Shown here: one piece after another, positions 17,726 to 38,945 of the stretch
How the letters are laid out: every line of letters begins with the position of its first letter
Position numbering within the stretch: the stretch's first letter is position 1
From: Jiella avicenniae
GTDB lineage: Bacteria; Pseudomonadota; Alphaproteobacteria; Rhizobiales; Rhizobiaceae
Reading direction: 5' to 3'
Assembly (NCBI RefSeq): GCF_021390325.1
Contig: NZ_JAJUWU010000006.1
Location: forward strand, 1 to 64,000
DNA: 64,000 nt
The notes under the pieces: model-generated
Seen by the model: the letters and a program-made list of their open reading frames with translations, nothing else
What the model was told of the DNA's origin: nothing
Database searches by the model: none
Translations under genes and position numbers: made by a program

Positions 17726-19427
<1,702 letters not shown>

Positions 19428-19431
<4 letters not shown>

Positions 19432-20369
19432 CCATCGGCATAGCCGCACACGGTCCGGCCGCGGGCCGGGCCATCCTGTCCTCCCTTCGCGCGGTCGAAG
19501 GCTTTGCCTCCGGCGCGATCGGCGGCTTCGTCAGCGTCGCGGCGCTCGCTTCCGACGGTCAGATCCACCGGGCCGAAATTCAGGATGGCGGCGCAACGGC
19601 GCTTCTGGAACGTGATCGGGTTGCGCAGGCCGTGCTGGAAGCGCCGTCCGTCGTCCTGATGTCCAGCGGACCGAACCGGCCGGAGCCACTGTCGCAGTTC
19701 ACGCCCGCCGCCACCGGCACGGGGCTCGTCACCGGCCATCGCTTTCCGAACAACGGGGGGCCGGACGGACGGTCGCTCGGCGAGGCGGTTCTCGCGGCGA
19801 TGATCGCAGGCGCCTCGCCGCGCGACGCCGCGGAAGCGGTAGTGAAAGCCAATCCCGGCGCCGATGCCGGGCTGATCGCGCTTTCGGCCGACGGCAGCGT
19901 CTTTGCCGCCGACACCGCTTTCCTCGCGCGCTTCGGCGATCGGGGCGGCATCACCCGCGAATCCGACGACGAGACCGCGCGCGTCGCCATCCTGCACAAC
20001 GGGATATGGCCGAGCGAAAGCCTCGCGCCGCTTCTTGCCGAACTCATCCTCGGGGCGATGATCCCGCCAGCGCCGATCGCCGGCGCGCTCGATCTTCGAG
20101 CGGGCACGCCCGTCGTCTTCGGCGAGGAGGCCGGGATCGTCCTTTCCGACATGGGCGCGATCGAGACCGTCCTGCTGATCGGCGACGGCGAGCCCCGAGG
20201 TCCCTGGTCGTGCGGAAGCGGTTACCGCGCCCCCGTCTGGCGATCCGGACAAAAGATCGGCTGCTGCCTCGACGAACCGTTCCTCGTAACAGAGGGCCGA
20301 AGGATCGTCTCCGTGAACGGCCGCCCCCGGGCCCCGATCCGATGGTCAGCGCGCAGGCCCGGTCCGTAG
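19428..20369 (+). CDS. Conserved protein of unknown function (possibly DUF6963)
   Basis: A 313-residue protein starting at GTG inside a GTGA overlap with the ATPase gene, so it belongs to the dipeptide-type operon. It begins TIGIAAHGPAAGRAI and shows an IGGFVSV segment, a HRFPNNGG segment and many small residues; no transmembrane helix or signal peptide is evident. From memory it resembles an uncharacterised family listed as DUF6963, which I could not check. The glycine-rich start and a GLIALSADG segment recall N-terminal-nucleophile hydrolases, but this is only an impression. Because it is encoded last in a peptide-import operon, a role in processing the imported compound is plausible. Confidence 0.65.
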
Positions 20370-20400: not shown

Positions 20401-21729
20401 TCACGGCAAGTCTTCGATCGTGACCTGATCGGTGCCGGTTTTGCCCTGCCGCGAATAATCCAGAGCATACCATCCGGCCGGGTGCAGCGTCAGCGCGTCG
20501 AATGCCGAGATGAGGCGTGTGCGGGTGCAGTCGCCGCCGCAGGCGCGCAGGGCGGACACGAGAACGGCGACCGCGACCGTCACGATCCTGTTGGGCGATG
20601 CCTCGGGCGAGGCCGAGGGCGGCATCGGATCGGCAAGGGTGATTGCGTAGCCCCGATCGAGCAAGGGCCGCACCCAAGGCTCCAGGGTGCGGCGCGGCGC
20701 GAGCAGAGCCGGCCGGCCGTCGATCTGTGACAACAGCCGGGGTATCTCCTCGGGACTGCAGAGAAGAAGCACGCTCACGGCTTTGATCGGCCGCATCTCC
20801 ATGGGCGAAACCATCCGCCAGCCCGTTTCGCCCTTCCGGGCCGGGCGCGGAATCTCCGCGGCGACGATGCGAGCGAGTCGCTTTGCCGTCTCCGTCCCGT
20901 CGGTCAGTACGGCGCCGCCAGAGGTCGATCGGATCAACGCACGCGCCTGGTCTGCCAGGCTCGCCCAAAGACCGCGAATGTCAGGCGGCTCGTCGCCCAC
21001 GAGGCCGCCGGCGGGAAAGAGCGTGATCGGACAGCCGGAAACCGGCCCGCCGATCGCAACGAAGCAAGGTGCGTCGGCTGTCCTTTCCCGCTTCCCCCCC
21101 ACGGCAGCCGTCTTTGTCGGCGGCGCCACCTCTTCTGCAAGCGTAAGCCTGAAGGGTAGGCCCCAGAGGCCGTTCGGGAGGACGCGGTCGAGTTCGGCCC
21201 GCAATGCCTCGACGAGTTCGTCGCCGCCACGAATTTTCACGTGAATGGCATTCGGACCGAATCCCCGCCTCTCGTCGGTCGCCACCACTGCGAGCCACTG
21301 GTGGAGCGCCGTGACGGCCCGAGGTCCGAAATGAAATCGCGGCATGGTTGGCGACAGGGTTCGCCCGTCCGGCGCGATCCCGGACCGCAGCGTCTCGGCC
21401 AGCGCCGTCGGAGCGGCATAGGCAGCGTCTCGCCCGGCGAGCCGATCGAGCCGCAGGGCAGGGGCCGGGCGGCTGCCCTCGCGCCCGCCTTCCGCATCTG
21501 CGCCGTGACAGCCGGCGCAGGCCAGGCGCTCGAGGGGCGCCGCCATGCCCAGGATGGATGCTTCGCCGGCCGAGGCCACCTCACCGCGATAGATCGAACG
21601 GCCGAGGGCTGCCTCGTCTTCGGCGCGCGCAATCGTTCTGAGGCAGGAGAGCATCAGCAGCGAGACGACGCAGAGCCGCAATGTGCAGGCCACCGTCCTG
21701 CCGACGGGATGCTGAAATCGTCGCCTCAT
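20401..21729 (-). CDS. Exported c-type cytochrome with long C-terminal domain
   Basis: A 442-residue exported protein. After a signal peptide ending near IARA, residues 38-155 form a mono-haem cytochrome c domain with C71-A-G-C74-H75 and a likely axial methionine M129 in SPTMPRF. Residues 155-442 are a separate domain with no haem motif. Its end (LHPAGWYALDYSRQGKTG) faintly recalls periplasmic binding proteins of the branched-chain amino-acid type; I am unsure of that. The ATG overlaps the stop of the SCO gene (ATGA), making it the last gene of a four-gene operon. It is the natural electron acceptor for the upstream multicopper oxidase system, by inference. Confidence 0.8.
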   Translation of the reverse strand: MRRRFQHPVGRTVACTLRLCVVSLLMLSCLRTIARAEDEAALGRSIYRGEVASAGEASILGMAAPLERLACAGCHGADAEGGREGSRPAPALRLDRLAGRDAAYAAPTALAETLRSGIAPDGRTLSPTMPRFHFGPRAVTALHQWLAVVATDERRGFGPNAIHVKIRGGDELVEALRAELDRVLPNGLWGLPFRLTLAEEVAPPTKTAAVGGKRERTADAPCFVAIGGPVSGCPITLFPAGGLVGDEPPDIRGLWASLADQARALIRSTSGGAVLTDGTETAKRLARIVAAEIPRPARKGETGWRMVSPMEMRPIKAVSVLLLCSPEEIPRLLSQIDGRPALLAPRRTLEPWVRPLLDRGYAITLADPMPPSASPEASPNRIVTVAVAVLVSALRACGGDCTRTRLISAFDALTLHPAGWYALDYSRQGKTGTDQVTIEDLP

Positions 21730-22346
21730 GGCGTGTCGGCATCGCCGGTCGGTTCGTACTGCCGGGCGATTTCAACGAGCGTCTCCGGCATGGCGAGACC
21801 CGTGATCGGGGTCATCTTCCCGGAGCCGAGGCTGCCGACGAAGAACATGACGTCATGCTCGGCCAGCGGTGCGCCGGTCTCGACGCCGAGCCGGCGCAGC
21901 AATCCGTGCACCTCCGCCGGTCTCCCCGTCGCCCAGTGCCAGTTCGCAGGCGATCCGAAATCGGCATGATGCGCCGCGAGACGATCGTGGCTGTCGTTCT
22001 CGGGATCCAGCGTCAGGGTGACGAGGCTCGGCATGGCGGGACTTCCCCCGAGGTCGAGGGCGAGCTTGTGCATCACGAGATCGGAGACCGGGCATTGCTC
22101 CGGGCAGTCGAGGTAGGAGAAGGAGAGGATGAACGACCGCTCCCCCAGAAGCTCGCTCAGTCCGGTCGCCTTGCCGGACGTGTCCACCAATCGCGCCTCC
22201 AGTGACGGGATCGGCACCTGCGACAGCCGCTGGCTTTGCACCTCGGTGCCCGTGTCGCGTCGGTGGGCATCATGGGCACGGGCTGCCGGGATCGCGGCAG
22301 CAAGGGCCGCCGCGACGACGACGAGAGCTTCGAGCCGCGCAGTCAT
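21726..22346 (-). CDS. SCO1/SenC-family copper chaperone
   Basis: An exported thioredoxin-fold protein of 206 residues with a signal peptide (MTARLEALVVVAAALAAAIPAARA). The copper ligands are the pair C81 and C85 in DCPEQCP and H164 in AEHDVMF, at family-typical spacing. SCO proteins usually load copper into cytochrome oxidase; here no oxidase subunit is nearby and the gene is overlapped by ATGA on both sides within a multicopper oxidase operon. Delivery of copper to that oxidase is the likelier job. Confidence 0.85.
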   Translation of the reverse strand: MTARLEALVVVAAALAAAIPAARAHDAHRRDTGTEVQSQRLSQVPIPSLEARLVDTSGKATGLSELLGERSFILSFSYLDCPEQCPVSDLVMHKLALDLGGSPAMPSLVTLTLDPENDSHDRLAAHHADFGSPANWHWATGRPAEVHGLLRRLGVETGAPLAEHDVMFFVGSLGSGKMTPITGLAMPETLVEIARQYEPTGDADTP

Positions 22347-24241
22347 GGGTCTTCTCCCTTGTTCTCGACGCGGACGAGACCGGGCACGATGCGGTCGCCG
22401 GCTTGCAGCGCAAAGCCGGGCATGACGGGATACTGACCGGGCCCCGGCAGCGTCAGCCGCGCCGTGTAGCGGTTGCTCCGTGCCTCGCGCACCGCGACGA
22501 CCGGCATCTGCCATGGCCGGTCCAGCGCCATCACCGTGAAAGGGAGTTCGTCGCGCAGTCTCCCGCCGGTTTCGTCGAAATCGAGCCGAATGACGAGATC
22601 GGCCGTCCGATCCTTGCCGAGCCGGACCGGCTCGGCAAGGATCGTCAGGGTTCGCTGGTTCGATGCGGTGGTCGGGCCCTCGACGTCGATGCGGAAACAA
22701 GCCGAGAGCGCCGCGAGACCCGTCGTGACCACCAGCTCCCACGCGCCGCCCGCCGGCGCCGAGACCGTGGTTTCATAGCGGCCGAGCGTGACCTCGCGCA
22801 GGCTGCGGTCGAACAGCGCCATGGCTCGGGGCATGCCGCCCTTGATGCGAAAGGCCGTCATCGGCGGCATGCCTTCCCCCTGTCCGGCCTGAACCACGAA
22901 CACGGTCTGGGTCGGACGCTGCAGGGCGAGAACCCCGCCACCATGGGAGAGCGGCAGGAGATAGGGGCCGCTGTCCGGCGGCAGTTCGGCGCCCGGACCC
23001 AGACGCACGTTCTCGACGCTGGGCGCCTCGCCCGGTGCGACGGCTGCAAGATCGATCACCATCACCGCGGAAAGATCGTCGAGAAGGGCGTAGGCCGTCG
23101 TGCCGGCGACTTCGAGTTCGCGGATCGGCCGCTCGAAGGAAACCGCCCCGGCAAGCATCATGCTGGCGATCTCGACGAAGCTCATGGCGCCGGTGCCGGG
23201 CATCCAGGCGACGGCAACGCGCTCCAGCGAGCCGATCGCAAGCCGCGTGGCGGGCGCGGGGAGCGCCAGCGGCCTGCTGACGCCGCCGTCGGCGCGACGC
23301 AATTCGACGGCCTCCCGGTCCCGCAGCGCAAGGACGCCTGAAGCCTTGGGTGCGAAGACCGCGTCGTCCACCCTTGCTCCACCTGGAAAGCGGCGCGTCG
23401 TCCCGTCGACGGCGATCGAAGAGACCGTCCCGTCCTCGCCGATCGCCAGGATGTCCGGCTCGCCGGGCTGAGGTCGACCGTCCTCGGGGTCGGGGGGCAG
23501 CGCCGCGGCCCGCATGCGGGCGATCGTCGAGCCCGTTTCGATCGGCATCGCGTCGCCTGCCGGTGAAATGCGCCTGATCGTGCCGCCGGCTCCCGCCCAT
23601 GTGGCGAGATCGGTCGCCACCAGATGCCGCGCGGCCTCGCCGCCGATCCCCGATGGATCCGTTCTGCCGTCGGTGAGGACGGTGCGCATTCGCCGGCCAT
23701 CGTCGGCGATTACCTGCATCGCCGCCTGATCGGCGAGGAAACGCGTCGGCACCGCGCCGAGATCGGCGATCGAGACGATGTTGCTGGTGGCGAGATCGAG
23801 CCGCGGATCGACCATGGACACATGGGCGTCGTCATGGAGGACGGCGACGAGGGCGCCGTTGAGGTCGATGGCGCCGATCGGCAAGCGGCCGGTGCGGTTG
23901 AAGGTTTCGGCGGCGCGGTTGCAGGCGAGGTTCGACCTCTCGATCGGCCGCAGCCAGGCCGCCGGATGCAGCTCGCCGGCGGGCCGTCGGGTTGCCGCAT
24001 CGGTCAGATCCAACCCGATACGGAAAGCCTCGCCCGAAGCGGGCCGTTCGACCGCCGTCCCGTCAGGCTTCATGAGGTGAAGTTTGACGTCGAGCCCGGC
24101 CTTCAGGTCGTCGGCACGGGCGGGCAAAGCTGACGCCCCGGGCCGGGAACCGCCATCTTCCCCGTGCACCACGCCGGGCGTCGCCGCCAGGACGATGGCG
24201 GCGGCGAGGCGCAAGATGGGCATTCCGATCTCGCGCCTCAT
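22343..24241 (-). CDS. Large exported propeller-like protein of unknown function
   Basis: An exported protein of 632 residues with a signal peptide ending near VVHGED. The middle consists of repeated short segments of the type found in YncE-like or cytochrome d1-like beta-propellers, such as LIGAID-type loops, a SIADLGAVPTRFLAD segment and LAIGEDGTVSSIAVDGTTRRF. Residues about 490-630 look like one or two beta-sandwich domains (VTTGLAALSACFRIDVEGP; RSNRYTARLTLPGPGQYPVMPGF). There are two cysteines in the mature part and no haem motif. It is overlapped by ATGA at both ends between the giant multicopper oxidase and the SCO gene. No function is known to me; a scaffold or electron-transfer partner for the oxidase is a guess. 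Confidence 0.75.
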   Translation of the reverse strand: MRREIGMPILRLAAAIVLAATPGVVHGEDGGSRPGASALPARADDLKAGLDVKLHLMKPDGTAVERPASGEAFRIGLDLTDAATRRPAGELHPAAWLRPIERSNLACNRAAETFNRTGRLPIGAIDLNGALVAVLHDDAHVSMVDPRLDLATSNIVSIADLGAVPTRFLADQAAMQVIADDGRRMRTVLTDGRTDPSGIGGEAARHLVATDLATWAGAGGTIRRISPAGDAMPIETGSTIARMRAAALPPDPEDGRPQPGEPDILAIGEDGTVSSIAVDGTTRRFPGGARVDDAVFAPKASGVLALRDREAVELRRADGGVSRPLALPAPATRLAIGSLERVAVAWMPGTGAMSFVEIASMMLAGAVSFERPIRELEVAGTTAYALLDDLSAVMVIDLAAVAPGEAPSVENVRLGPGAELPPDSGPYLLPLSHGGGVLALQRPTQTVFVVQAGQGEGMPPMTAFRIKGGMPRAMALFDRSLREVTLGRYETTVSAPAGGAWELVVTTGLAALSACFRIDVEGPTTASNQRTLTILAEPVRLGKDRTADLVIRLDFDETGGRLRDELPFTVMALDRPWQMPVVAVREARSNRYTARLTLPGPGQYPVMPGFALQAGDRIVPGLVRVENKGEDP

Positions 24242-27200
24242 TCTGCCGCGGGTTCCGTGCCCGTCGTCAGAGAAGCGGCGTCGCTGCGCCGGCATTTGGT
24301 GGCGTCAGGATCGTCGATCCTCCCCTTCTCCACGACGTCGAGCAGCCCCCAGGTGCCGCCGGCGCGAAGCGGGGCGGGCCCGTCCTGCCAGAGATAGCAG
24401 CCTTCGCGCACCGGCCGCGCTATGGAGGCGGTTATCCCCTTGCCCGGCGCGAGGAGCGCCGCATGGGGAAAACCGAACCCCGGAAACAGATCGTCGTAGT
24501 CGAGCGCGGTCGTGACGAACGCCCGCTGCCGTGCGCGGCCCGAGGGATGCAGAACCCGGATCACCACCTCCTCGCCGACCTCGGCTCTGAGGATCGGCAT
24601 GGCGGAGGCGCCGCCACTGCCTTCCTCCCTGGTCCCCTGCTTCGTCCGGTAGAACTCCGGATCGAATTCAAGCGCATTGAGATCGTAGTGCGATTCGATC
24701 GTCTCCGGGTTCCGCGCCGGGGCGCCGTCGTCGTCGCGTTTGCCCGTTGTGTCGCCGCGCAGCCTGATGTGGAACGGCGCCGACTGGTAGTTCACGCCTT
24801 GTTCGCCGAAATCGTAGCTGTCGTCGCAGACCGGGCAGTCGGCGACGGGACCGCCTTGCGCCGGAAGCCCGTTCGTTTCGGACTCCGAGCCCTTGGTACG
24901 CCACTGATCCTTCGAGGCACGGTCCCAAAGGTTCATGCCGTCGCGCCAGAAGACGACGTGCTCGCGCACCCGATGCGTTCCGCCTTCGAAAACGGCGGAA
25001 AAGGAGGCGCCAGAATAGATGCCGGTCGGAGGATCGCCGGCCGGCGGATCGCCCGGACCGAGCAGGACCGGCGCTGCACCGATTTCGGCTTCGGCCCGGG
25101 CTTTGGCTTGTGCCCAAGTGTCAGCTTCCGCGCCTGCTGTGGGCTCGCTATCGAGAGCTGCCCCCAATTCGAGCATGCGGGCTCTGACCGCGCCGCGGAT
25201 CGCGTTGGTTCCGATCGCGGAAAATGCGTGATCCCCAGACTGCGGATGCCAATTGGCCGGCTCGATCACCAGCGCTCCCAGAAGCCCATGGGACCCATGG
25301 CCGATCACGTCGCCAAAGGACTTGATCGGCAAGGCCCCGAACGCATAGGGAACGCAGGTTGCGACGGAATCGACGTTGTCGGTCGAACCATCGGAGTCGC
25401 GCGGATCGGACAGTGCGCAGCCCCTTCGCGCGAGATTTATGACGATGGTTGGCGGAGAATCGGCGTCGCCGGGAGCGCCCCTCGATTCGGGGGCAGACGG
25501 GGGCGCTGCTCCCGGAGCCCCAAAACCGGTCCCTCCAGTGAAGTCCCGAATGGATGGCGGCATGGATCGCGCCACCTGCGGCTGTTCGCGATTTTCGAGG
25601 ACGAACGCAGTCACTCGATCGGCCGCGCGTGTCGCCATCAGCAATTTCTCTCTGCTGATCACGCCTTCCGCAAACATATCAGCTATGAATTTCTTATCGG
25701 GTTGACGAAGTGGTTCCGGAAGCTGCGAGTCGGTCGCGCGGCTCGCATCGGCGAGAGTGTTGAGCGCGCCCTCGATTGCCAAGGCCCGGTTTCGACCGAC
25801 TGGAACGGGTTCGCCGGTAACCGGAAGAGAACGAACCTCCTCTTCGACGAAAGCGATCGCCTCTTGCGGGTCGGACAATGCCGGCGGAAGTTCCTCAAAC
25901 CCGGTTCCGGCAACTACGACTATGGGTTGTGGAGCTAAGGTCTTCCGAAGTTGCCGGCCGCCAGAGCCGCCTCCAATGCCCGCCAGATACTGCTCGGCAA
26001 TCTCTCGCTTCTCCCTCTCACTCAGTTCCGGGACGGCCCCGCGACCCGCGTAGAACGTGATGAATTCGGCCTCCGGGCCACCCTCACCTGTGAGTGCGGT
26101 CTCCGACTGTGGTCGGAGAGGTGGCATCCTGTTGCTGCCATGGGGTGCGGCGAGGCGATCAATCGGCGTCAGTGTCAGAATGGGCAGCCGAAGCGCCAAA
26201 CTCGCCGAAGGGCTCAGTAGACGTTTGTGCTCGTCGATCTCGGCATTCGTCAGGTCGGCAATCCAGGTAACGGACCGATTCTGGCAGGATGCATCGCCGA
26301 CTGGGCAGCTCTGTCTGTCGTCCTCGTTCCACCGCGGATCGACATTCAGTGGAACGATCGGCGGCATGCGTGCGTCGCCCATTTCATCCGCAAGGACAGG
26401 AAACCCATAGTCTGGCGACTGGGAATGTGTGGACGATGTATTTTGCTGTTCCTCTGCTAGAGGGGCGCCCTCCTGCCGGGCGTCCTCAAGCGCGTTAACG
26501 ACCGCCAGATGGACGCAATCGCCGGCGCGAACGCGCAACACAAAGGGGGTGTGGGCTGGCTTTCGTGCGGAAATCCGAATGGGCGCTCCCAGCTGCCTGC
26601 GGCCACCTTCCCCGAACTTCATCATGAAGTCGCCGAGCTTGGCTTGGTCGATCGGCTTCTTGTTCGGGTCGTCGTAGTTTCTGAAAACGTCGGCAGGCTT
26701 GATCAAGGTAAACTGGAGCCCGTCCGGATCCCGCAAATCGCGGGAGTAGGCGCGATCAGCATCGTTTTGCGCCACGGCCAGCGCGTAGACGTGGCGCGCG
26801 TCGGCTGGACAGCTGACGGAGTTGGCTGAATTTGCCGAGGGTTGTAGTCCGAAAACACCGTTCTCGAGTGTGTCGTCAGGCTTCTTGGGTAGTGCTGCGA
26901 GGCGGTCGCTGATCTTGCGGCGGTTGCCCATTCCACGGTCACATGCTTTGGCATAGCCGACCGGGTCGACGGAAGACAGGTTATCCTTGGCTAGAAGACA
27001 AGCGGTCGTGTCCGGATCAGGAAACCTGGAATTGCCATTCGGATCGTACTCGTCGCGTTCAGGGGCTCCGTACACCCTCAGCAGACCCCAGGCACCGTTC
27101 CACAGCGCATCTTGCGATCCAAAATCATAAAGATAATCGCCGCTCGCCAGACGTCCGCCGGGGCTCGTCGCCTGTCCTTCGCTCATGCCGTCGCCATCGC

Positions 27201-30200
27201 GCGATGGATTGGAGAGATCGGGTTGGAGACCCGAATTCACTCCTCCTCGCGAGGATCCGCCGAACTCGAAATGCTCCGAGATCCCGACTTCCTGGGCCGT
27301 GACGACGCCTTCCTGATTGTCGCATTCGGCGATCCGGTGCGTGTAGGCGCGCCAGAAATTCTGCTCGGGCGAATTGTCGGGGAAGGACTGCCAGCCGCGC
27401 GACGACCATTGCGCATATTCGCGCGGACGCCCCTCGCGGGCGGCCCCGAATTCCTGGCAGGTCTGGTGCATGGTCGCATAGGCCTTCACGCCCTGCGGCC
27501 AGTCGCCCCGCCAGATCGAGTCCCACAGCCGCATCATCGAGGGGAAGGCCTGGTCGATGTTGCGCCGCCAGACGACGCCTTCGAGATTGAAGGTGTGCTG
27601 CACCTCCTGCGCACCCTGGATCAGGCGAATGACGTTGCGCTCGCCGGAATAGGTCTCGAGGATCGGCGTCGCGGGATCGAAATGCTGGAGCGACGAGAAG
27701 ACGTTCGCCATGTCGCCTTGCTCGTCGGTTCGCTGGTACTCCACCGAACAATCTCGGAATGCGGCGATATCCTCGACGCCTGCCTTGTTGCCGAAATCGG
27801 CTCCACCGACGGTCAAATTTCCTTCGAGCCGAGGTGCTCCGATTGATGCCTTCCTCGGGTCGAAGCGAACGACGGTGCCGTCGGCAAGCGTTCGTTCGTA
27901 AAGGCCGTCCCCTATCGGGACAGCGTCAGTCGGTACAGGCGCCAGCGCCATGTCTGGCTGGGCGAGCGGCTGAAGACGGCAGTCCGTCAGACCTCCATTG
28001 TTCGCTAGTTTGGTGCCGACCCTCAGCGGAATCGGCTCGCCGCGATAGTTGACGAGATAGGGGTCGTGATGATCGACGGAGATCGACTCCGGCCGTTCGG
28101 GCGGCGCCACGGGAGACGCGAATTCGTCCGCATCCGAATCCGGCTTCTCGCCGGCGGCGCCGCGCCTATAGGCCAGCAGATGCTCGGACAGTCTGGACTG
28201 ATCCTCGGCGGTCAGCAGACCGGGACGATAGGAGCCCTGATGCGTGTCCTTGATTCGACCGCCCGCGTGCCAGGACGGCGGGACGTTTTCGTCGGCGAAC
28301 CATTCCCCGCCGGACTGTTTCATCGCCGAGCCGCAAACGTCGTCGAGGAGTTTTGGCTGGTCTTTGAACATCAGTTCGCAGGTCAGCGTCGCCATGCCTG
28401 CGCCGCTGAACTCCTCCCACTCCGAAGCGTAACCCGGCCGCTTCTGGGGGAAGAGATCCTTCTTTGTTTCACTGTCCCGCGGGTCATAGAGCAGCGCGAA
28501 GTCGGCGATCGCGAGCATGAATTCGCGGAAGTCGGGATGCACCTTCTGGTCGGCCGCGTTCACCACGCGCTTCCGCGTGCCGATGTCGATCTCCGAGCCG
28601 TTGACGAGGCCGAGATCGCCAGCGACCCGCTGCGGGCTTTCGCTCGTCCCGTCCGGCTTCGTCCATTGCGACCCGCGGGGTTCGATCACCAGAGCGGTGT
28701 AGTAGCCGTGCTGCTGGATCGACGAGGGGCCGAAATGGTCGTGGCTGAAGACTGTGCGCATGGTGCGGTCGACCACGCCGCCTTCCCCGTCGTCGGAAAG
28801 GATCGGATCGGCGAACCAGCGCTGGACGGTGGTCTGGAAGCGATCCTCGTTGGTGGAGCGCTTCATGCGCCACCAGTTCTTATTGGCGGGTTCGCTCGGC
28901 CCCTCGTCGCTTTTGCAAAGATCGGATGGTCGAAGCAGATCAAGTGCGCCAGGGTTGCGGGTCGTGACGATGTCGCCGCCTGATACCGATTCCGCCGCGC
29001 AGATGCGGCTCGCCACCTCGTCGGGGGCGAAGGTGCCGTCCTCGTAATTGAAGCCGTTGCCGGAGCCGTCCGAAGAGGTGACGTCGAACTTCACCAGATG
29101 AATATGCTGGCCGATCGTGTCGGTCGGCGTCTTGACCTGGAAGTCGTCGAGTTCGAGTTCCTTCGGCAGTTCGTTGGTGTGGCGGAACTCCACGCATTCA
29201 CCCGACAGCGCACGGAAGAAGAACGGCTCCTCGCGCGCCGAGACGAGCGGCGAGATCGAGGCGCCGGGAAAGCCTGCCTCTTCGTCGTCCTTGAACCGGT
29301 CGGACGCTTCGGTCAGCACGGCGATGCGCGCCTGCGGGTCGTGCCAGCCGGCCCGGTTGGTCACGAGGTCGAGCTGGACGGCCGAGACCTCGAAGCGCCG
29401 GAAACCCGCGAGGCCGACATCGAAGGGAAATTCGGTCAATCCGGCCCGGTAGGGAGCGCCGGCGACCAGGGGATCTGCCTGGGGGCGCTTGCCGCTGCCG
29501 GCGGTGCCGCCGCAGGGATCGGCGAAGGGGGCCCCCGGCTTCGGCGGCGCGCCGTTGACGGCAAAGAGGTCCGTCGACTGGGTGAGCGAGCCGAGGGAGG
29601 GCGAGCGAAGGGATTCGTAGGATCCGACCAGCGGGCGGCCGGACGGCGAACCGTCGGCCTTCCTCAGCTCGAGCGCCGTGCCGGCCTTGTGCTTGCCGTC
29701 CGTGTCGCGCGAGGGCCATGCCTCGCCGTTGAAATGAAACCCCATCGCCGCGCGTTCGAGCGGCGTTCCATCATAGGGCAGGAGTTCCAGTTTCGCCTTT
29801 TCAAGATGGGCTGAGAAGTCGCCGAGAGCGAGCATCTTGGCGACAAGTTGCGACCAGACGCGTTCGCGCTTGCGTTCTTCGGCGTTTCTTGGCGTTGAGC
29901 CGTCTTCCGTCGTCGGCAGTGGAAGCTTCGCTGGTTCTGCATTCTCTTGCGAGAGTTGGGGCGGAAGCTCACCGATCCCCAGTTTCCGTGTCGCCCCGTC
30001 CTGCACCACATGGCGCGGCAGGCCGGCATCGGCATAGGCCCCGGTAACTTCGTCCGCCCCGTTGCGTTTGCGGGCAATGTCCATCGGCGCCTGGGGCGGG
30101 CGGTGGCCGGGACGCCCGGCCAGGGTGAATGGATAGCCGGGCATGGCCGCAGCTTTCGTCTCCGCCGTGGTGCCAGGGGATGCCGCAGCCGGAACGATCT

Positions 30201-32460
30201 CCGCAGGCGGATTCTTCGCCTTATCCACCACCGCCGAGACCGTCTCCTCGCCTTCGTATGTCGGCAGCAGCGGCAGTGGCTGGTTCGGCAGGGGCACGAT
30301 GGCCGGGATCGGAGTCCCGACGGTGTCGCCCGCCTTGCCGCCGGCGTCGGGAGCGACCCATGCGCCGGTCCATGGATCGACGCTGCCCGGACGGCGCTTG
30401 AGGCCGTCGAGCGCGCGCTCCGCCAACGAAAGCCCTTTTTCCGCCTGACCGTCCGGCAGCTTGCGGGTGCCGTCTTCCAGGACGTCGTGGACCCGCCACA
30501 GCTCCCACATGCCTTGGGCGAAATGCGGGTAGAGATGGCAGTGGAAGATCGAGTCGCCGATGGTCCGGTTGCGGTTGCCGGAGCCCATCGTCTCCCACCA
30601 CCCCTTGCCCGAAGGCTGCTGGCCCGGCGCATAGGCCATCAGGCCGCCGTGATAGATGTCGTAGGTGAAGCCCTGGCGTGGGGCGACCGTCTGGCTGTCG
30701 AGATAGGTGCCGCGGCCCTGGTCGTTGCCGGCGAACCACTGGTGGGCATGCAGGTGGAAGACGTGCGTCTCCTTCGGCCCGGCGTGGAAATTGCGGAAGC
30801 TGACGGGATCGTTGAGATAGGAGTGATGGACGTTCGACGGATCGTCCGAGAACTGTTCGAGCAGCGCCGGATCGCCGTTCGCCCAGGAGGTCAGAAAGAA
30901 CTCCTCGTAGAGACATTCGGCGCAGTCGGCCGCCGGCCCGATATTCTTGCGGTTGGCGAGGATCATCGCGCCGAGCCCCGACGAGCCGTAGTTGATCGCG
31001 AAACCGTCGCGGACGCCGGCGAGTTGGCCGAACTGGCCGAGTTCCTCGAAATTGCGGGTATAGAAGGTCTTGAGTTCGTCGTGGAAGAAGACCGAGAACT
31101 CGCGGAACTTGACCTCGCAGAACTCCGCCTGATGTCTTGGATTTCCGCCGGCGGCGCAAGCCGCGCGCCCCTCCTCGCTCATCGTTGCGGTGTGAACGCT
31201 CAGGCCTTGCGGGCCTGCCGCGAACCCCCGATCCGGCGAGTAGGTTCCGGCCGGGCGAAAGACGACGGCGTTGAGATCGGAGTGGACGATTTCGATCCAT
31301 CTCGCGCGATCGAAGTCGGATTGAGAGACGAGCTGCTCGGACGAATTCGCACCAACGAGCGGCCGGGTCGGCTTGGCGAGGTTCAGCAGCGGATCGCCGT
31401 TGCGGTCGACCGCCTCGTAGTCGATCGCACCGTTGCGGGCGTGGCGGATCGGCTCCGGACCGGCCGGAGCCCAGGCCGCATCGAAGACGCCGGCCGGCAC
31501 CTGGCTACGATACCAGCGGGTGTGGCGCTGCTCGGCGACGACGGCGCCGAACAGGCCGTGGGTGATCGAGCCGCCATTCCCCTCGCCGCCGGCGGGCGCG
31601 GCATCGGAGGCCATGAAGTAGGTGCCTTCACGGTCCACCTCGAACTGGCAGTCGACCGCCTTGCCCGGCGCGATGGCCTGAAGGCCGCGACAGGCGCGCA
31701 AGGCCTCGATCGACGGGCCGGCTCCGGGGAAGCGACCGGCCACGGCAACCAGCCCGTCGATCGAGAACGCCACTCCTCGGGTTCTGGGCCAATTCAGATC
31801 CGTTTTGTCGGCATCCTTCATCCCGGTCTCGGCCGAGTTTTCCCGGCAGAGGGCCTCGCCGTGGCGCAGGAGCTCTTCATCGCCTTCGGACACTGCAGGC
31901 CGGACCGCGCTCCGCAGCCCGTCGCGCGTCCATTCGCCGTTTTGGCAGAAGGTCTTCGACAAACCCGGTTGCATGTCGCGCAGAAGATTGCGCACGCGCA
32001 GAACGAGCACGTCTCCGGCATTGGCTCGCAAGACGAGCGGCCGGGGCCGCTTGCAGTCGCGCAGACGAACTTTTCCGGCCTCCAGCCCATCCGGGTTCAA
32101 ATTGGGCAGGAGCCGCCCACTTTCTGCCGTCTCGTCATTGACGCGCATGTCGCACAGTTGCGCATCTGGCTGGGGTTCGCTGCCACGATCGTCGATTTTG
32201 ACGACGTCGCGGCTGAGCGCGAAGATCATGCCGAACGGATTGAAGGAGCCGAAGCGATTGTAGACCAGCATATGGTCGAGCGCCGCGACATCGGCACAAA
32301 CGATGCGCCGTCCGGACCCGGCGCCCGACAGGCTCTCACAGGAAAACTGCGATGATGTCGCTTGCGGGGCTTCTTCCGCCGAAGCCGGTGTGATCGGAGC
32401 AAGGCAGAGGGCGAGGACGAACAGCGCTCCCGCATGCCTGGTCGAGGATGCTGCAACCAT
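24238..32460 (-). CDS. Giant exported multicopper oxidase (MofA/McoA/MnxG-like)
   Basis: A single open frame of 2,740 residues, far above the usual 450-650 of multicopper oxidases. The ATG at 32460 follows GGGAGA by eight bases and gives a clean Sec signal (MVAASSTRHAGALFVLALCL, cut after ASA). All four copper motifs are present: H566-x-x-H569-x-H571 (HVFHLHAH), H640-C641-H642 with H646 and M651 (HCHLYPHFAQGM), H1119-x-H1121 (QHIHLVKF) and H1240-x-H1242 (SHDHFG). The two motifs normally near the C-terminus come first and the two normally near the N-terminus come second, a permuted order. Recurrent HG-x-x-x-A-L/V-V motifs near residues 301, 1251 and 2391 suggest several cupredoxin modules. The first of four overlapping genes, it probably oxidises a metal ion (Mn(II) as in MofA/McoA) or a phenolic outside the cytoplasm. 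Substrate is unproven. Confidence 0.88.
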   Translation of the reverse strand: MVAASSTRHAGALFVLALCLAPITPASAEEAPQATSSQFSCESLSGAGSGRRIVCADVAALDHMLVYNRFGSFNPFGMIFALSRDVVKIDDRGSEPQPDAQLCDMRVNDETAESGRLLPNLNPDGLEAGKVRLRDCKRPRPLVLRANAGDVLVLRVRNLLRDMQPGLSKTFCQNGEWTRDGLRSAVRPAVSEGDEELLRHGEALCRENSAETGMKDADKTDLNWPRTRGVAFSIDGLVAVAGRFPGAGPSIEALRACRGLQAIAPGKAVDCQFEVDREGTYFMASDAAPAGGEGNGGSITHGLFGAVVAEQRHTRWYRSQVPAGVFDAAWAPAGPEPIRHARNGAIDYEAVDRNGDPLLNLAKPTRPLVGANSSEQLVSQSDFDRARWIEIVHSDLNAVVFRPAGTYSPDRGFAAGPQGLSVHTATMSEEGRAACAAGGNPRHQAEFCEVKFREFSVFFHDELKTFYTRNFEELGQFGQLAGVRDGFAINYGSSGLGAMILANRKNIGPAADCAECLYEEFFLTSWANGDPALLEQFSDDPSNVHHSYLNDPVSFRNFHAGPKETHVFHLHAHQWFAGNDQGRGTYLDSQTVAPRQGFTYDIYHGGLMAYAPGQQPSGKGWWETMGSGNRNRTIGDSIFHCHLYPHFAQGMWELWRVHDVLEDGTRKLPDGQAEKGLSLAERALDGLKRRPGSVDPWTGAWVAPDAGGKAGDTVGTPIPAIVPLPNQPLPLLPTYEGEETVSAVVDKAKNPPAEIVPAAASPGTTAETKAAAMPGYPFTLAGRPGHRPPQAPMDIARKRNGADEVTGAYADAGLPRHVVQDGATRKLGIGELPPQLSQENAEPAKLPLPTTEDGSTPRNAEERKRERVWSQLVAKMLALGDFSAHLEKAKLELLPYDGTPLERAAMGFHFNGEAWPSRDTDGKHKAGTALELRKADGSPSGRPLVGSYESLRSPSLGSLTQSTDLFAVNGAPPKPGAPFADPCGGTAGSGKRPQADPLVAGAPYRAGLTEFPFDVGLAGFRRFEVSAVQLDLVTNRAGWHDPQARIAVLTEASDRFKDDEEAGFPGASISPLVSAREEPFFFRALSGECVEFRHTNELPKELELDDFQVKTPTDTIGQHIHLVKFDVTSSDGSGNGFNYEDGTFAPDEVASRICAAESVSGGDIVTTRNPGALDLLRPSDLCKSDEGPSEPANKNWWRMKRSTNEDRFQTTVQRWFADPILSDDGEGGVVDRTMRTVFSHDHFGPSSIQQHGYYTALVIEPRGSQWTKPDGTSESPQRVAGDLGLVNGSEIDIGTRKRVVNAADQKVHPDFREFMLAIADFALLYDPRDSETKKDLFPQKRPGYASEWEEFSGAGMATLTCELMFKDQPKLLDDVCGSAMKQSGGEWFADENVPPSWHAGGRIKDTHQGSYRPGLLTAEDQSRLSEHLLAYRRGAAGEKPDSDADEFASPVAPPERPESISVDHHDPYLVNYRGEPIPLRVGTKLANNGGLTDCRLQPLAQPDMALAPVPTDAVPIGDGLYERTLADGTVVRFDPRKASIGAPRLEGNLTVGGADFGNKAGVEDIAAFRDCSVEYQRTDEQGDMANVFSSLQHFDPATPILETYSGERNVIRLIQGAQEVQHTFNLEGVVWRRNIDQAFPSMMRLWDSIWRGDWPQGVKAYATMHQTCQEFGAAREGRPREYAQWSSRGWQSFPDNSPEQNFWRAYTHRIAECDNQEGVVTAQEVGISEHFEFGGSSRGGVNSGLQPDLSNPSRDGDGMSEGQATSPGGRLASGDYLYDFGSQDALWNGAWGLLRVYGAPERDEYDPNGNSRFPDPDTTACLLAKDNLSSVDPVGYAKACDRGMGNRRKISDRLAALPKKPDDTLENGVFGLQPSANSANSVSCPADARHVYALAVAQNDADRAYSRDLRDPDGLQFTLIKPADVFRNYDDPNKKPIDQAKLGDFMMKFGEGGRRQLGAPIRISARKPAHTPFVLRVRAGDCVHLAVVNALEDARQEGAPLAEEQQNTSSTHSQSPDYGFPVLADEMGDARMPPIVPLNVDPRWNEDDRQSCPVGDASCQNRSVTWIADLTNAEIDEHKRLLSPSASLALRLPILTLTPIDRLAAPHGSNRMPPLRPQSETALTGEGGPEAEFITFYAGRGAVPELSEREKREIAEQYLAGIGGGSGGRQLRKTLAPQPIVVVAGTGFEELPPALSDPQEAIAFVEEEVRSLPVTGEPVPVGRNRALAIEGALNTLADASRATDSQLPEPLRQPDKKFIADMFAEGVISREKLLMATRAADRVTAFVLENREQPQVARSMPPSIRDFTGGTGFGAPGAAPPSAPESRGAPGDADSPPTIVINLARRGCALSDPRDSDGSTDNVDSVATCVPYAFGALPIKSFGDVIGHGSHGLLGALVIEPANWHPQSGDHAFSAIGTNAIRGAVRARMLELGAALDSEPTAGAEADTWAQAKARAEAEIGAAPVLLGPGDPPAGDPPTGIYSGASFSAVFEGGTHRVREHVVFWRDGMNLWDRASKDQWRTKGSESETNGLPAQGGPVADCPVCDDSYDFGEQGVNYQSAPFHIRLRGDTTGKRDDDGAPARNPETIESHYDLNALEFDPEFYRTKQGTREEGSGGASAMPILRAEVGEEVVIRVLHPSGRARQRAFVTTALDYDDLFPGFGFPHAALLAPGKGITASIARPVREGCYLWQDGPAPLRAGGTWGLLDVVEKGRIDDPDATKCRRSDAASLTTGTEPAAE

Positions 32461-32487
32461 CGGCGTTTTCTCCCGCAAGGGAATATG

Positions 32488-32516
32488 AGTTTCTCTATGG
32501 CAGGTTGTCTTGTCAA
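32488..32516 (-). promoter_or_regulatory. Probable promoter of the multicopper oxidase operon
   Basis: On the minus strand a perfect TTGACA (32516-32511) is followed after 17 bases by GAAACT, a poor -10. The predicted transcript would start about 20 bases before the ATG. The GGGAGA ribosome-binding site lies in between. Confidence 0.45.
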
Positions 32517-33081
32517 GCGAAGCTGCCGAGAATTGGGGCATCGTTTGCTGCGATATGACGCGGAAAATCGCGTTCATTCGATCGGGCGGAGATCCTCCGG
32601 CGTCGTCTTTCCGACGCGTGGCTGGCGTGCCCTTCCGTCCACAAGAAAACGGTCGTGCGGCCCTCGATGCTTTCGAGTCTGTCGAACTCTCTGAAAATTC
32701 AGAGACTTGAGAGGACAGCTTTCGTCCTGTCGCCTGATCGGAAGCTGCCGGCCATACCCGGTTCGAGCCGTGCCGGTTGGGTCGGAAAGGGAGGTTGGCC
32801 GACGACGACTTGCGGCGACCGATGCCTGCCGTTGAGGCACGTAAAGTCTTCGTCCTGTCGGCGAATTGATCCTCGGCGTGACCTGCCGCCGCCCCGACCC
32901 GCGAGCGCGGGACGATCGAGCACCCTCTCGTCATGCCGGTGACGCTCTCCGGGATCATCGCGAGACGGATCGGGCCGATCTGTGTCGTCGTTCTTTTCGC
33001 CCGCCTCCGCGCTTTCGAGCAACGCGGTGGCTGATCGTCCGCCCCTGCGTTTTCGGCGGATCCGCCGCCGGTCCGGAGCGA

Positions 33082-33095
33082 TTGATCCGGATCAA
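33082..33095 (+). promoter_or_regulatory. FNR/FixK-type operator
   Basis: TTGATCCGGATCAA is a perfect inverted repeat and matches TTGAT-N4-ATCAA, the target of FNR, FixK, Anr and Dnr. It lies 87 bases before atpD. A class-II position would put transcription start near 33130; the -10 region there (TTAGGA) is weak, as is usual for activated promoters. Confidence 0.75.
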
Positions 33096-33119
33096 GGTCG
33101 GTCGGTTTTCCCCTCTTAG

Positions 33120-35052
<1,933 letters not shown>

Positions 35053-35056
<4 letters not shown>

Positions 35057-35385
35057 GCGAGACGCCCGAGGAGATCGGCGAAGAAGGGGGCGAAAAGCCC
35101 CTCGCGCCGAGGCCGAAGGACGGCCTGGCCGACTCCGTCGAGCTGCGCGCCGAGCGCCACCGGCGCTGGCGGCGAGAGGGCGAGCCGCCGATCGCTCATC
35201 GCCTCGCACAGATCGGCGTCCTCGGCTGGATGGTCGTGACGCCGATGCTGATCGGGCTGTTCGTCGGACGCTGGATGGATCAGGCGCTGGGCTCTCGTCT
35301 GACGTTCACCGGCGCGCTGCTGATGGCCGGGACCGGCCTGGGCGCATGGTCTGCCTGGAAATGGATGAACCGAAGCGAGGGATGA
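35053..35385 (+). CDS. atpQ: N-type ATPase AtpQ (AtpI-like) membrane protein
   Basis: A 110-residue protein with a charged N-terminal half (about 55 residues rich in Glu and Arg) and two transmembrane helices (IGVLGWMVVTPMLIGLFVGRW; FTGALLMAGTGLGAWSAW). It is the AtpI-like gene specific to N-ATPase operons and probably helps to assemble the c-ring. Confidence 0.85.
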
Positions 35386-35392
35386 AACGGAC

Positions 35393-35692
35393 ATGGCCTT
35401 CGACGTCGCTCTTCCCGAATGGACGGTCGTGGCGGGACTCCCGCTCTGTCTTCTCGCCGGCGTGGCGCTCGGCCTCGCGCATTTCGGCGCGCTCTGGCGG
35501 CAGGCGCAGGCGCTTGCGGGCAAAGTCCGGCCGAGCCGCGCGGCGGCGGAGGTTCTGGCTCGTTTCGCCGTGCTCGTCGCCGGCTTCGTCGCGGCAAGTC
35601 TTCTCGGGGCAGGACCGCTTCTCGCGCTCGCGCTCGGCGTCATGATCGGACGCTGGCTGGTGATGCGCCGGGTGGAGAGGGCCGACCCATGA
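35393..35692 (+). CDS. atpR: N-type ATPase AtpR membrane protein
   Basis: A 99-residue membrane protein with about three hydrophobic helices (VVAGLPLCLLAGVALGLAHFG; VLARFAVLVAGFVAASLLG; LALALGVMIGRWLV). AtpR is found only in N-ATPase operons between AtpQ and subunit a; a role in c-ring stability has been suggested for the family. It overlaps atpB by four bases. Confidence 0.85.
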   Translation: MAFDVALPEWTVVAGLPLCLLAGVALGLAHFGALWRQAQALAGKVRPSRAAAEVLARFAVLVAGFVAASLLGAGPLLALALGVMIGRWLVMRRVERADP

Positions 35693-36381
35693 ACGCGCCG
35701 CTGACGACCGAGCCGCTCTTCATGCTCGGACCCGTTGCGATCTCCGCGCCGGTGGTCGTCACATGGGCGCTGATGGCGCTGCTCGTTCTCGGCTCGATCC
35801 TCGCCACGCGCAGGCTCTCCATGAAACCATCGACCCTGCAGGCCGCGCTGGAAATGGTCGTCGAGACGATCGACGGGCAGATGCGCGACATCATGGAGGC
35901 CGAGCCCGACCCCTATCGCGCGTTCGTCGGCACGCTCTTCGTCTTCATCCTCTTCGCCAACTGGTCGTCGCTGGTGCCGGGTGTCGAGCCGCCGACGGCC
36001 CATCTCGAAACCGACGCGGCACTGGCGTTTCTCGTCTTCTGCGCGGTGATCGTCTTCGGCATCAGGGCGAATGGCGTCCTCGGCTATCTGAGGAGCTTCG
36101 CCGCGCCGACCTTTCTGATGATCCCGCTCAACCTCGTCGAGACGATCACCCGCTCGCTCTCGCTCCTCGTCCGCCTCTTCGGCAACGTGATGAGCGGTGT
36201 CTTCATCGTCGGCATCGTCCTGTCGCTCGCCGGCCTGTTCGTTCCGATCCCGCTGATGGCGCTCGATCTGCTGACCGGTGCGGTCCAGGCCTACATCTTC
36301 GCGGTTCTCGCGGCCGTCTTCATCGCCGGCACGGTTTCCGAGGGGCGGCCCCACGCCGCCTCGTCTTCCGAAAAGTCCTGA
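35689..36381 (+). CDS. atpB: N-type ATPase subunit a
   Basis: The stator channel protein, 230 residues, with five to six membrane helices. The essential arginine is R162 in SLLVRLFGNVMSG. The segment FANWSSLVPGVEPPTAHLETD is typical of N-ATPase a subunits. It sits before the c-subunit gene and ends in a short soluble tail. Confidence 0.93.
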   Translation: MNAPLTTEPLFMLGPVAISAPVVVTWALMALLVLGSILATRRLSMKPSTLQAALEMVVETIDGQMRDIMEAEPDPYRAFVGTLFVFILFANWSSLVPGVEPPTAHLETDAALAFLVFCAVIVFGIRANGVLGYLRSFAAPTFLMIPLNLVETITRSLSLLVRLFGNVMSGVFIVGIVLSLAGLFVPIPLMALDLLTGAVQAYIFAVLAAVFIAGTVSEGRPHAASSSEKS

Positions 36382-36393
36382 AAGGAAAACACC

Positions 36394-36636
36394 ATGAACT
36401 GGCTCGCCTTTGCCAGCATCATCGGGGCGGCGCTCGCCGTCGCCTTCGGAGCGATCGGCCCGGCGCTCGCCGAAGGCCGCGCCGTCGCCGCGGCGCTCGA
36501 TGCGATCGCCCGCCAGCCGGAAACGGCCTCGACCATTTCGAGGACGCTCTTCGTCGGTCTCGCCATGATCGAGACGACCGCGATCTACTGCCTCGTCGTC
36601 GCGCTGCTTCTTCTTTTCGCCAACCCCTTCGTCTGA
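36394..36636 (+). CDS. atpE: N-type ATPase subunit c
   Basis: An 80-residue hairpin of two membrane helices forming the rotor ring. The ion-binding glutamate is E60 in AMIETTAIY, followed by T61, T62 and Y65, which align with the ESTGIY sodium-site pattern. In the first helix, E27 (PALAEG) stands where sodium-type rings have glutamine, so each site has two carboxylates. That arrangement was found in the proton-coupled N-ATPase ring of Burkholderia pseudomallei, as I recall. The loop ARQPE is conserved. Confidence 0.94.
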   Translation: MNWLAFASIIGAALAVAFGAIGPALAEGRAVAAALDAIARQPETASTISRTLFVGLAMIETTAIYCLVVALLLLFANPFV

Positions 36637-36646
36637 CGTCGGAAAC

Positions 36647-37387
36647 ATGACCATCGATTGGTGGACGCTCGGGTTTCAGACCGTCAACGTCCTGATCCTG
36701 ATCTGGCTGCTCGGCCACTTCTTCTTCCAGCCGCTGTCCGACATGATCACGGCACGCAAGGCCGCGGCGGCTGGCATCCTCGACGAGGCCGAGGCGGCCC
36801 GAACCGACGCCAGACGAGAACTTCGGGCCATCGAGGAAACGAGGGCCGGCTTCGCCGCGGAGCATTCGGCGCTCGTCGAAAAGGCCCGAAGCGAGGCCGA
36901 GGCGGTGCGGGCGGGGATGATCGAGGCAGCGAAAGCGGAGGCCGCCCGGCATCTGGAGGTGGCGAAGGCTGACATCCTGGCCAAGCGGCAAGCCGAGCGC
37001 ACGGCTCTCGAAGCCGATGCCGGCCATCTCGCCGTCTCGATCGCCGAGCGGCTTCTCCGCCGCCTGGAGGGCGAGGCGCTCACCCGGGTTTTTCTCGACG
37101 ATCTCGTGAGGGAGATCCGCCGCCTGCCGGAGGCCGAACGCCGGACGCTGACCGCCGATGGCGTCCGTTTCACCGCGGTCAGCGCCGCCCCGTTGAGCGA
37201 GGACGACCGGGCTCTCTGCCGCGACCGTCTCGCAGAGGCGCTCGGTCGGGCACCGGACCTTACCTTCGAGACCGACGCGTCGCTGATCGCCGGCTTCGAA
37301 CTGAAGGGCGAGCATCTGTCGGTCGCCAATAGCTGGCGGGCCGATCTCGAAGCCGTCCGCGCGGAACTCGATCGAGGAGTTCACTGA
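36647..37387 (+). CDS. atpF: N-type ATPase subunit b with delta-like C-terminus
   Basis: The peripheral stalk protein, 246 residues against about 156 for ordinary b. Residues 1-25 form the membrane anchor ([19 protein letters not shown]), 30-135 a long charged coiled coil ([20 protein letters not shown]), and about 150-246 a compact domain. That last domain ends [20 protein letters not shown] and resembles the C-terminal part of delta. This explains why the operon has no atpH. Confidence 0.9.
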
Positions 37388-37388
37388 T

Positions 37389-38945
37389 ATGGCAAGCGAA
37401 ACGCAAGGCGATCTTCGCGCCACCCCGTGGCTGGATCGCATCCGGCAACGGGTCGACGCCGCCGCGGTCGGGCCGAAGGCCCGGCAGATCGGCCGGGTGG
37501 AGGAGGTGGGCGACGGGATCGCCCTGGTCTCCGGCCTCGCCGAGGCCCGGCTCGACGAACTCCTCGATTTCGGTGGCGGGCGCTTCGGTTTCGCCCAGGT
37601 GCTGGAGGAGGACCACGTCGGCTGCGTGCTGCTCGATACGGGCGAGGGCATCGAGGCCGGCGATCGGGTTTCGGGCACCGGCGACGTGCTGCGTGTCCCC
37701 GTGGGCGAGGGGCTTCTCGGCCGGATCGTCGATCCGCTCGGACGCCCCCTCGACGGCAAGGGCGAGATCGCCGGTGCCAGGCTCGAGCCGATCGAGCCGC
37801 CGGCGCCGGAGATCGTCGCCCGCGACGCGGTCACTCGGCCGGTGCAGACCGGAACGCTGGTCCTCGACGCGCTGTTCGCGCTGGGGCGCGGCCAGCGCGA
37901 ACTCATCATCGGCGATCGTGCCACCGGCAAGACCACGGTCGCGCTCGATGCGATCATCAGCCAGAAGCAGAGCGACATCGTCTCGGTCTATGTCGCCATC
38001 GGCCAGAAGAGCAGCAACGTGCGCCGGGCGATCGAGGCGATCGCGGCCCATGGCGCACCGGAGCGCACGATCGTCGTCGTCGCCGGCCCCTCGGATGCGC
38101 CGGGCCTGCAATGGATCGCGCCCTTCGCCGCCATGACCATGGCCGAATATTTCCGCGACCGAGGCGGACATGCGCTGATCGTGATCGATGATTTGACCAA
38201 GCACGCGGCGACCCACCGCGAGATCGCGTTGCTGACCCGCCAGTCGCCGGGACGCGAGGCCTATCCGGGCGACGTCTTCTACGTCCATGCACGGCTTCTG
38301 GAGCGCGCCGCCATGCTGTCGAAGGAGCGGGGCGGGGGCTCCCTGACGGCGCTTCCCATCGCCGAGACCGACGCCGGCAACCTGTCGGCCTATATCCCGA
38401 CCAATCTGATTTCGATCACCGACGGACAGATCGTGCTCGACGCGAAGCTCTTCAACCAGGGGCAGAAGCCGGCGGTGGACGTCGGCACCTCCGTCAGCCG
38501 CGTCGGCGGCAAGACGCAGGCCAAGGCCTTGCGCGAGGCGGCCTCCACCATGCGCCTCGACTACGCGCAGTTCCTCGAACTCGAAATGTTCACCCGCTTC
38601 GGCGGTCTCTCCGACGCCCGCGTGCGCGGGCGTCTCGCGCGCGGATCCCGCATCCGCGCGATCCTCGGTCAGCGGCCATCTCGTCCCTACCGGTTGGCCG
38701 AGGAGGTGGCGCTGGTCTCGGCGGTGCAGTCGGGCCTCGCCGACGACGTGCCGATCGAGGCGATCTCCGCCTTTGCCGAGGCGGTCCGTGAACGGATGGG
38801 GGCCGAAGCTCAGGAGGTCGTCCGTCAGGTGGAAGGGGAGGGAACTCTGGACGAGGCGGGAGAGACTGCGCTGAGGAATTGGCTCGGACGGCTCGTTCGG
38901 GAGTTTTCCGCAAATGCGCCGGAGGGCGCCGGCCAGGGACGATGA
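37389..38945 (+). CDS. atpA: N-type ATPase alpha subunit
   Basis: The non-catalytic nucleotide-binding subunit, 518 residues. Walker A is GDRATGKT at 175-182, and the arginine-finger region reads TSVSRVGGK. The opening [22 protein letters not shown] and the end are typical of the N-ATPase branch. It is followed by gamma with a ATGA overlap. Confidence 0.95.

Follow-up and report, generated by a model that had tools for sequence, protein, structure and literature searches.

A giant MnxG/MofA-type multicopper oxidase gene of Jiella avicenniae and its mnxG-like gene neighbourhood

Prokaryotic homologues of MnxG with six domains were described by Vasin et al. in 2013, who listed 23 such proteins of 1,217–2,681 amino acids (aa); the bacterial members have their mononuclear copper site in domain 2 and the trinuclear one between domains 2 and 3 (PMC3600357). 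Here, we analyzed the gene for a giant, 2,740-aa oxidase of this kind in Jiella avicenniae (assembly GCF_021390325.1, contig NZ_JAJUWU010000006.1, positions 1–64,000 of the forward strand; this whole 64,000-nucleotide stretch is called the window). Like the window oxidase, ceruloplasmin and hephaestin have six cupredoxin domains, but their trinuclear site lies between domains 1 and 6, and they have three type-1 sites (PMC3600357).

In Pseudomonas putida GB-1, the mnxG operon consists of mnxG followed by genes for a YVTN propeller, two SCO proteins, a substrate-binding protein with a cytochrome c domain and SurA (PMC11409713), and propeller lactonase, SCO and SurA genes are named for the same operon elsewhere (PMC8218464). 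MnxG of Bacillus sp. PL-12 acts together with MnxE and MnxF (PMC5622069), and the MofA operon includes mofB and mofC, encoding a Mip-type protein and a cytochrome c, respectively (PMC8218464). Our survey of literature on the cryo-electron microscopy of MnxEFG/MnxG found no Mnx structure paper within the literature and terms covered.

Family assignment and reading frame

The window oxidase matched the NCBIfam model NF041487 (MnxG) with 489 bits (E value, 2.4e-146) and the solved MnxG of Bacillus sp. PL-12 (9bxa), its best solved relative, with an E value of 4e-65. The score of 489 bits is below the MnxG equivalog cut-off of 3,100 bits, and the oxidase is not filed as an MnxG equivalog; no Pfam model matched it. 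Together with the domain alignments given below, these matches bear out the initial annotation of this DNA, which had proposed a multicopper oxidase of MnxG/MofA affinity whose motifs are ordered as in these proteins. P. putida GB-1 MnxG thus shares its family with the window oxidase, as indicated by the NCBIfam match. We take this protein to be PputGB1_2447. PputGB1_2447 is 1,944 aa long (PMC3600357).

A single-sequence search of the genome contig collection returned no relatives, and an alignment-based contig search with seven proteins returned 560, the best 80 of which (the nearest seventh) were kept as the basis of all counts of relatives. The frames of 72 of the 80 were uncut by contig ends; the eight cut ones (L058, L064, L074, L075, L078, L082, L089 and L102) were dropped. 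These 72 frames and the window made up a 73-row alignment, which includes three broken or short frames (L055, L060 and L084) that were dropped before tree building. In the resulting 70-row tree, computed with a short search, the window was placed within a 33-row set of 32 Alphaproteobacteria and itself with a support of 99. Because a phylum sample of 398 genomes gave no protein over the MnxG cut-off, no true Pseudomonas MnxG was compared, and MnxG proper of this genus is absent from the tree and alignments; the MnxG model matched four of the 398 genomes, including the window's own and one with a single marginal piece (E value, 9.7e-4).

The oxidase frame was open on the minus strand over 24238–32958, which corresponds to 2,906 aa in the window translation when counted from the first ATG. 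ATG 32460 is the likelier start, since an apparent Sec signal peptide begins there and a purine-rich stretch, GCGGGAGAAAA, precedes it. The 8.2-kb open frame of the initial annotation, for which no strand had been given, is therefore real, and its length of 2,740 aa is exact from this ATG. A sigma-70 scan did not find a promoter before the oxidase gene. The longest stop-free stretch of the window was 2,966 codons versus 684 in 20 second-order Markov sequences of the same length, and relatives matched over nearly the whole length of the frame, which excludes a chance frame. A plus-strand reading of this stretch contained many stops and was rejected. A G-rich run opens the contig, and these 64 kb recur at the end of another contig, as might be expected of an assembly or frame artefact, but this explanation, to which we assign a negligible probability, is refuted by the similarly long relatives found in named genomes and plasmids that were sequenced independently. 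Within the J. avicenniae genome, the last 64,020 bases of contig C49 are identical to the start of C45, the window's contig, except for 32 mismatches, all of them inside the first 67 bases, where C45 has its G-rich run. The overlap probably represents the same DNA assembled twice, and the "second copy" of the oxidase is thus likely no real paralogue.

Domain architecture, copper sites and size

The oxidase is almost certainly a six-domain protein of the MnxG/MofA type with its copper site at the domain 2/3 junction (Table 1). N- and C-type cupredoxin domains alternated along the chain (1N-2C-3N-4C-5N-6C). Profiles and models aligned it to MnxG residues 161–647 and 672–1211, placing domains 2–6 in order; for domain 4, the profile alignment covered MnxG 672–799 and the model match began at residue 1541. 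Domain 1 was assigned from the alignment with the relatives together with a weak match to 9bxa. Since Foldseek alignments were weak when taken alone (template-modelling score, 0.33), the fold match relies on VIA-align and sequence profiles instead.

Table 1. Features of the oxidase gene and its partner genes (window coordinates)
Feature	Coordinates	Strand	Basis or remark
Giant MnxG/MofA-type multicopper oxidase gene, 2,740 aa	24238..32460	minus	Open frame, NF041487, 9bxa, long relatives
Sec signal peptide (probable), about residues 1–32, end PASA-E	32365..32460	minus	Sequence judged by eye
Domain 1, about residues 50–330, N-type cupredoxin without copper ligands	31471..32313	minus	Alignment, bounds set by hand; 9bxa match weak
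Domain 2, about residues 380–690, type-1 site and half of trinuclear site	30391..31323	minus	
HxxHxH motif, residues 566–573 (HVFHLHAH)	30742..30765	minus	H566, H569, H571 each in 72/73 rows
HCHxxxHxxxxM motif, residues 640–651	30508..30543	minus	H640, C641, H642, H646, M651 in 73/73 rows; search pattern and regular expression selected for motif
Domain 3, about residues 1020–1340, other half of trinuclear site	28441..29403	minus	
HxH motif, residues 1119–1121 (HIH)	29098..29106	minus	H1119, H1121 in 73/73 rows
HxH motif, residues 1240–1242 (HDH)	28735..28743	minus	H1240, H1242 in 73/73 rows
Domain 4, about residues 1451–1815, C-type cupredoxin, copper motifs replaced	27016..28110	minus	
D1595, E1619, H1622 stretch, domain 4	27595..27678	minus	73, 73 and 72 of 73 rows
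E1729-H1730-F-E1732, domain 4	27265..27276	minus	E1729, H1730, E1732 in 73/73 rows
Domain 5, about residues 1871–2405, N-type, degenerate, with 215-residue insertion	25246..26850	minus	
Largest insertion, residues 2148–2362 (215 residues)	25375..26019	minus	Mostly low model confidence
Domain 6, about residues 2406–2725, C-type, degenerate	24286..25245	minus	
Propeller-like protein, 632 aa, signal-like N-terminus	22343..24241	minus	Start overlaps oxidase stop (ATGA)
SCO1/SenC copper chaperone, 206 aa	21726..22346	minus	PF02630, E value 1e-11; ATGA overlap; CPEQC in sequence
Cytochrome c, 442 aa, one CAGCH motif	20401..21729	minus	ATGA overlap with preceding gene

The copper motifs were found at the positions claimed in the initial annotation, and the ligands of one type-1 and one trinuclear site were complete in domains 2 and 3 by the 73-row alignment; the solved MnxG aligned across both of these domains. 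The full count for H640, C641, H642, H646 and M651 is not independent, because HFAQGMW was one of the two patterns used to retrieve the relatives, and their frames were chosen by the regular expression H[CS]H..PH...[GS]M. As only the domain 2/3 junction keeps all ligands, the type-1 copper is assigned to residues 566–651, and the two halves of the trinuclear site to residues 566–651 and 1119–1242. This arrangement follows the bacterial layout (PMC3600357). The motif order, read initially as permuted, requires no special event; it looks permuted because the working site of the six-domain chain lies between domains 2 and 3. The long tail without canonical motifs, about 1,400–1,500 residues following the catalytic half, is likewise present as claimed and represents domains 4–6 of the usual six-domain scaffold.

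The claim of exceptional size did not hold. Counted from the first start codon, the 72 uncut relatives were 1,556–2,844 aa long (median, 2,345), five of them at least 2,700 aa; lengths counted in this way may run somewhat long, and the window oxidase would by the same rule have 2,906 aa, above all relatives. When the stretch between the HCH motif and the stop codon is compared instead, a measure independent of the choice of start codon, five of the 72 (L063, L079, L037, L042 and L080) were longer, with 2,120–2,243 residues versus 2,101 in the window. In addition, a multicopper oxidase of like class and near-equal size, that of Roseovarius sp. TM1035 with 2,681 aa, had been listed in 2013 among the six-domain MnxG homologues of prokaryotes (PMC3600357, appendix). 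Since that article gives both the domain 2/3 layout and the 2,681-aa protein, motif order and size are already in print, and the window oxidase is an ordinary though large member of the MnxG/MofA kind. Thus, the family, the motif order and metal oxidation as the likeliest activity stand from the overall interpretation in the initial annotation, and the exceptional size does not.

Comparison with 18 short relatives divided the 2,740 residues into 1,627 of core and 1,113 of insertion, with 22 insertions of at least 15 residues distributed along the whole chain. We propose that the extra length consists of these insertions, and that domains 1 and 4–6 belong to the scaffold. The mean predicted local distance difference test score (pLDDT) in the C-terminal half was 53 for insertion-rich blocks versus 80 for core blocks, and hardly differed in the catalytic half (65 versus 68). 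The extent of insertion, its poor modelling in the C-terminal half, the presence of the gene in just one of ten genomes of the genus (its own included) and split frames in some relatives might be taken to mean that an ordinary oxidase core has been swollen by decay, with the C-terminal half and insertions free of selection. We regard this as very improbable, as the gene runs over 8.2 kb without a stop or frameshift, domains 4–6 have many residues kept in at least 90% of the 73 rows, and insertions of similar size recur among related Alphaproteobacteria. Among the relatives, the L055 oxidase frame stops early, L060 and L084 are without an in-frame N-terminal part, and the propeller match is divided between two frames in both L008 and L010; these split or shortened genes may reflect sequencing error or decay.

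Domain 4 contains two conserved acidic and histidine clusters (Table 1), of which E1729-H1730 lies approximately where an HCH motif would be. H1730 and E1732 are replaced in the Priestia, Rubrobacter and Pseudonocardia relatives (Bacillus/actinobacterial type) and in 9bxa, whose domain 4 is without E-H-x-E. Conservation alone marks no metal site, since similarity was the basis for choosing the 73 rows, and many further positions of the protein are equally kept. It is conceivable, though we think it improbable, that the proteobacterial, mnxG-operon branch has a second, Mn-binding metal site here on the remains of the lost type-1 site, with D1595, E1619, H1622 and E1729-H1730-x-E1732, and possibly H1464/H1465, as putative ligands. 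If true, the domain 4 site would serve the second step of Mn oxidation or initiate the mineral, a task for which the Bacillus branch may use the MnxE/F subunits. The cluster offers a testable guess at the source of the second electron or of the mineral.

Operon and neighboring genes

The oxidase gene very probably lies in an mnxG-like operon. Behind it, genes for a propeller-like protein, an SCO protein and a cytochrome c/binding-protein follow in the same order as in GB-1 (PMC11409713; PMC8218464), each beginning within the stop codon of the preceding gene, although the binding-protein half is weak. Indeed, PF13442 matched the cytochrome gene with an E value of 0.0015, below the Pfam cut-off; its cytochrome part was 38% identical over 138 columns to a Leptothrix cytochrome c/Peripla_BP_6 protein, and its C-terminal half, which aligned in one weak piece (E value, 0.018) to the binding-protein half of the latter, may share ancestry with a periplasmic binding protein. 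The 632-aa protein had no Pfam match of its own; the propeller call is indirect because it is drawn from a Leptothrix protein with a Pfam YncE propeller, with which most of the chain aligned at 22% identity (E value, 5e-12). Unlike the GB-1 operon, which has two SCO genes and also one for SurA, the window gave a single match to the SCO profile, so that a second SCO gene was not found. With regard to the mofB and mofC genes of the MofA operon, a cytochrome c gene is present here, and no Pfam isomerase match was obtained in the four operon genes, the part of the window searched for one.

Downstream DNA of at least 5 kb was available for 59 relatives (21 of the 80 loci had too little and are outside this count); all three partners were found in 47 of them, the propeller only in two (L086 and L093) and none in ten (L065, L069, L072, L076, L088, L090, L095, L101, L108 and L111). 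The window, L007, L009, L011 and L012 supplied the sequences for the partner profiles, with L109 added for the propeller and the cytochrome; these source loci match by construction, and L109 is counted among the 47. The ten partnerless relatives comprised four Nitrosomonas, three Nitrospira, a Meiothermus, a Methylocaldum and a Sphaerotilus. The giants of Leptothrix, Sphaerotilus and Rubrivivax (L109, L111 and L112), which may be of the MofA, McoA or MnxG type, have shorter oxidases of about 1,600–1,650 aa, and that of L109 was 37% identical to the window oxidase over residues 54–1325 in a single piece. L109 and L112 have the same kinds of partner genes as the window, but divergently arranged on the opposite strand; beside L111, the profiles found none. 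The Bacillus-type systems differ further: 9bxa MnxG has 1,217–1,227 aa, and no propeller, SCO or cytochrome gene is annotated within the 9.2 kb viewed around the Priestia oxidase.

Past the operon end lies a DUF6963 and DUF7259 protein gene (19392–20369, plus strand). Divergent from the oxidase are F1F0-ATPase genes (33183–39793, plus strand), namely, those for an alpha/beta-family subunit (33183), B/delta (36647), alpha (37389) and gamma (38945); the best NCBIfam match of the B subunit was the "alternate F1F0" type, below its cut-off. Two long minus-strand frames before the oxidase (32955–34751 and 34912–36654) were judged spurious, as they have no Pfam/NCBIfam family and lie opposite the ATP-synthase genes or their neighbors. 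A trypsin-like serine protease gene was detected by profile upstream of and on the opposite strand to the oxidase in 16 of the 80 relatives (L034, L036, L039, L045, L046, L050, L051, L053, L054, L060, L064, L067, L068, L070, L077 and L103), and a serine protease is also annotated near the oxidase in the plasmid loci L007–L009; this profile had no match in the window. Where present, such a protease could process the giant oxidase.

Substrate, spread and implications

Taken as a whole, the gene probably encodes a secreted six-domain oxidase of the MnxG/MofA superfamily, expressed from an mnxG-like operon and most likely acting on Mn(II); homology and the operon both point to Mn(II) oxidation as the most likely activity. 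Electron transfer from a type-1 copper through the His-Cys-His motif to a trinuclear site is established multicopper oxidase chemistry. In the window protein, which the signal peptide suggests would be secreted, metal ions would each time give one electron to the type-1 copper, the electrons would pass via H640-C641-H642 to the trinuclear site, where O2 would be reduced to water, and the oxidized metal would leave as Mn(III/IV) oxide. The SCO protein would load copper into the oxidase, and the propeller-like protein and the cytochrome may aid maturation or electron transfer. Mn(II) itself, a candidate suggested by sequence comparison, may well be the physiological substrate.

A less probable alternative is that this member of the same family has another substrate, as a secreted cuprous, ferrous or phenol oxidase involved in copper or iron tolerance. 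Organisms with relatives include Nitrosomonas, Nitrospira, Nitrobacter, Paracoccus and methylotrophs, and most of them are not known as Mn oxidizers. Several relatives are plasmid-borne, the six-domain oxidases of the ceruloplasmin type are ferroxidases (PMC3600357), and Sphaerotilus mobilis has a giant relative without partner genes (L111), which counts in the same direction because its genus is reported not to oxidize Mn (PMC13386937). Conversely, the closest characterized operon in the literature covered encodes a Mn oxidase and has the same gene kinds in the same order, and a family search detected no metal efflux or uptake gene among the four operon genes, which argues against this alternative. 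Elsewhere in the same genome (C46:275417–275863), a weak animal-heme-peroxidase match (29 bits; cut-off, 25) was detected 5–6 kb from PF07731 copper-oxidase matches, and a heme route to Mn oxidation may also be present in this organism.

Thirty plasmid records matched the oxidase, and nine of the 20 matches listed (seven from Paracoccus, one from Roseivivax and one from Methylobacterium) covered at least 80% of the protein; eight of these nine are annotated as hypothetical protein, and one record is without annotation. In the family sample, five of 151 genomes, its own included, had the oxidase. The third-position guanine-plus-cytosine (G+C) content was 0.76 for the oxidase, 0.78–0.83 for the three partners and 0.85–0.87 for two neighboring ATP-synthase genes. 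Such spread and G+C content would fit a gene set moving between strains.

Together, these results place the oxidase in the Mn-oxidase family, within a large branch from Alphaproteobacteria in which most plasmid-borne members carry the annotation hypothetical protein, and tie this branch to the kinds of helper genes known from Pseudomonas. The combination of oxidase, propeller, SCO and cytochrome genes provides a simple genomic sign for possible Mn oxidizers.
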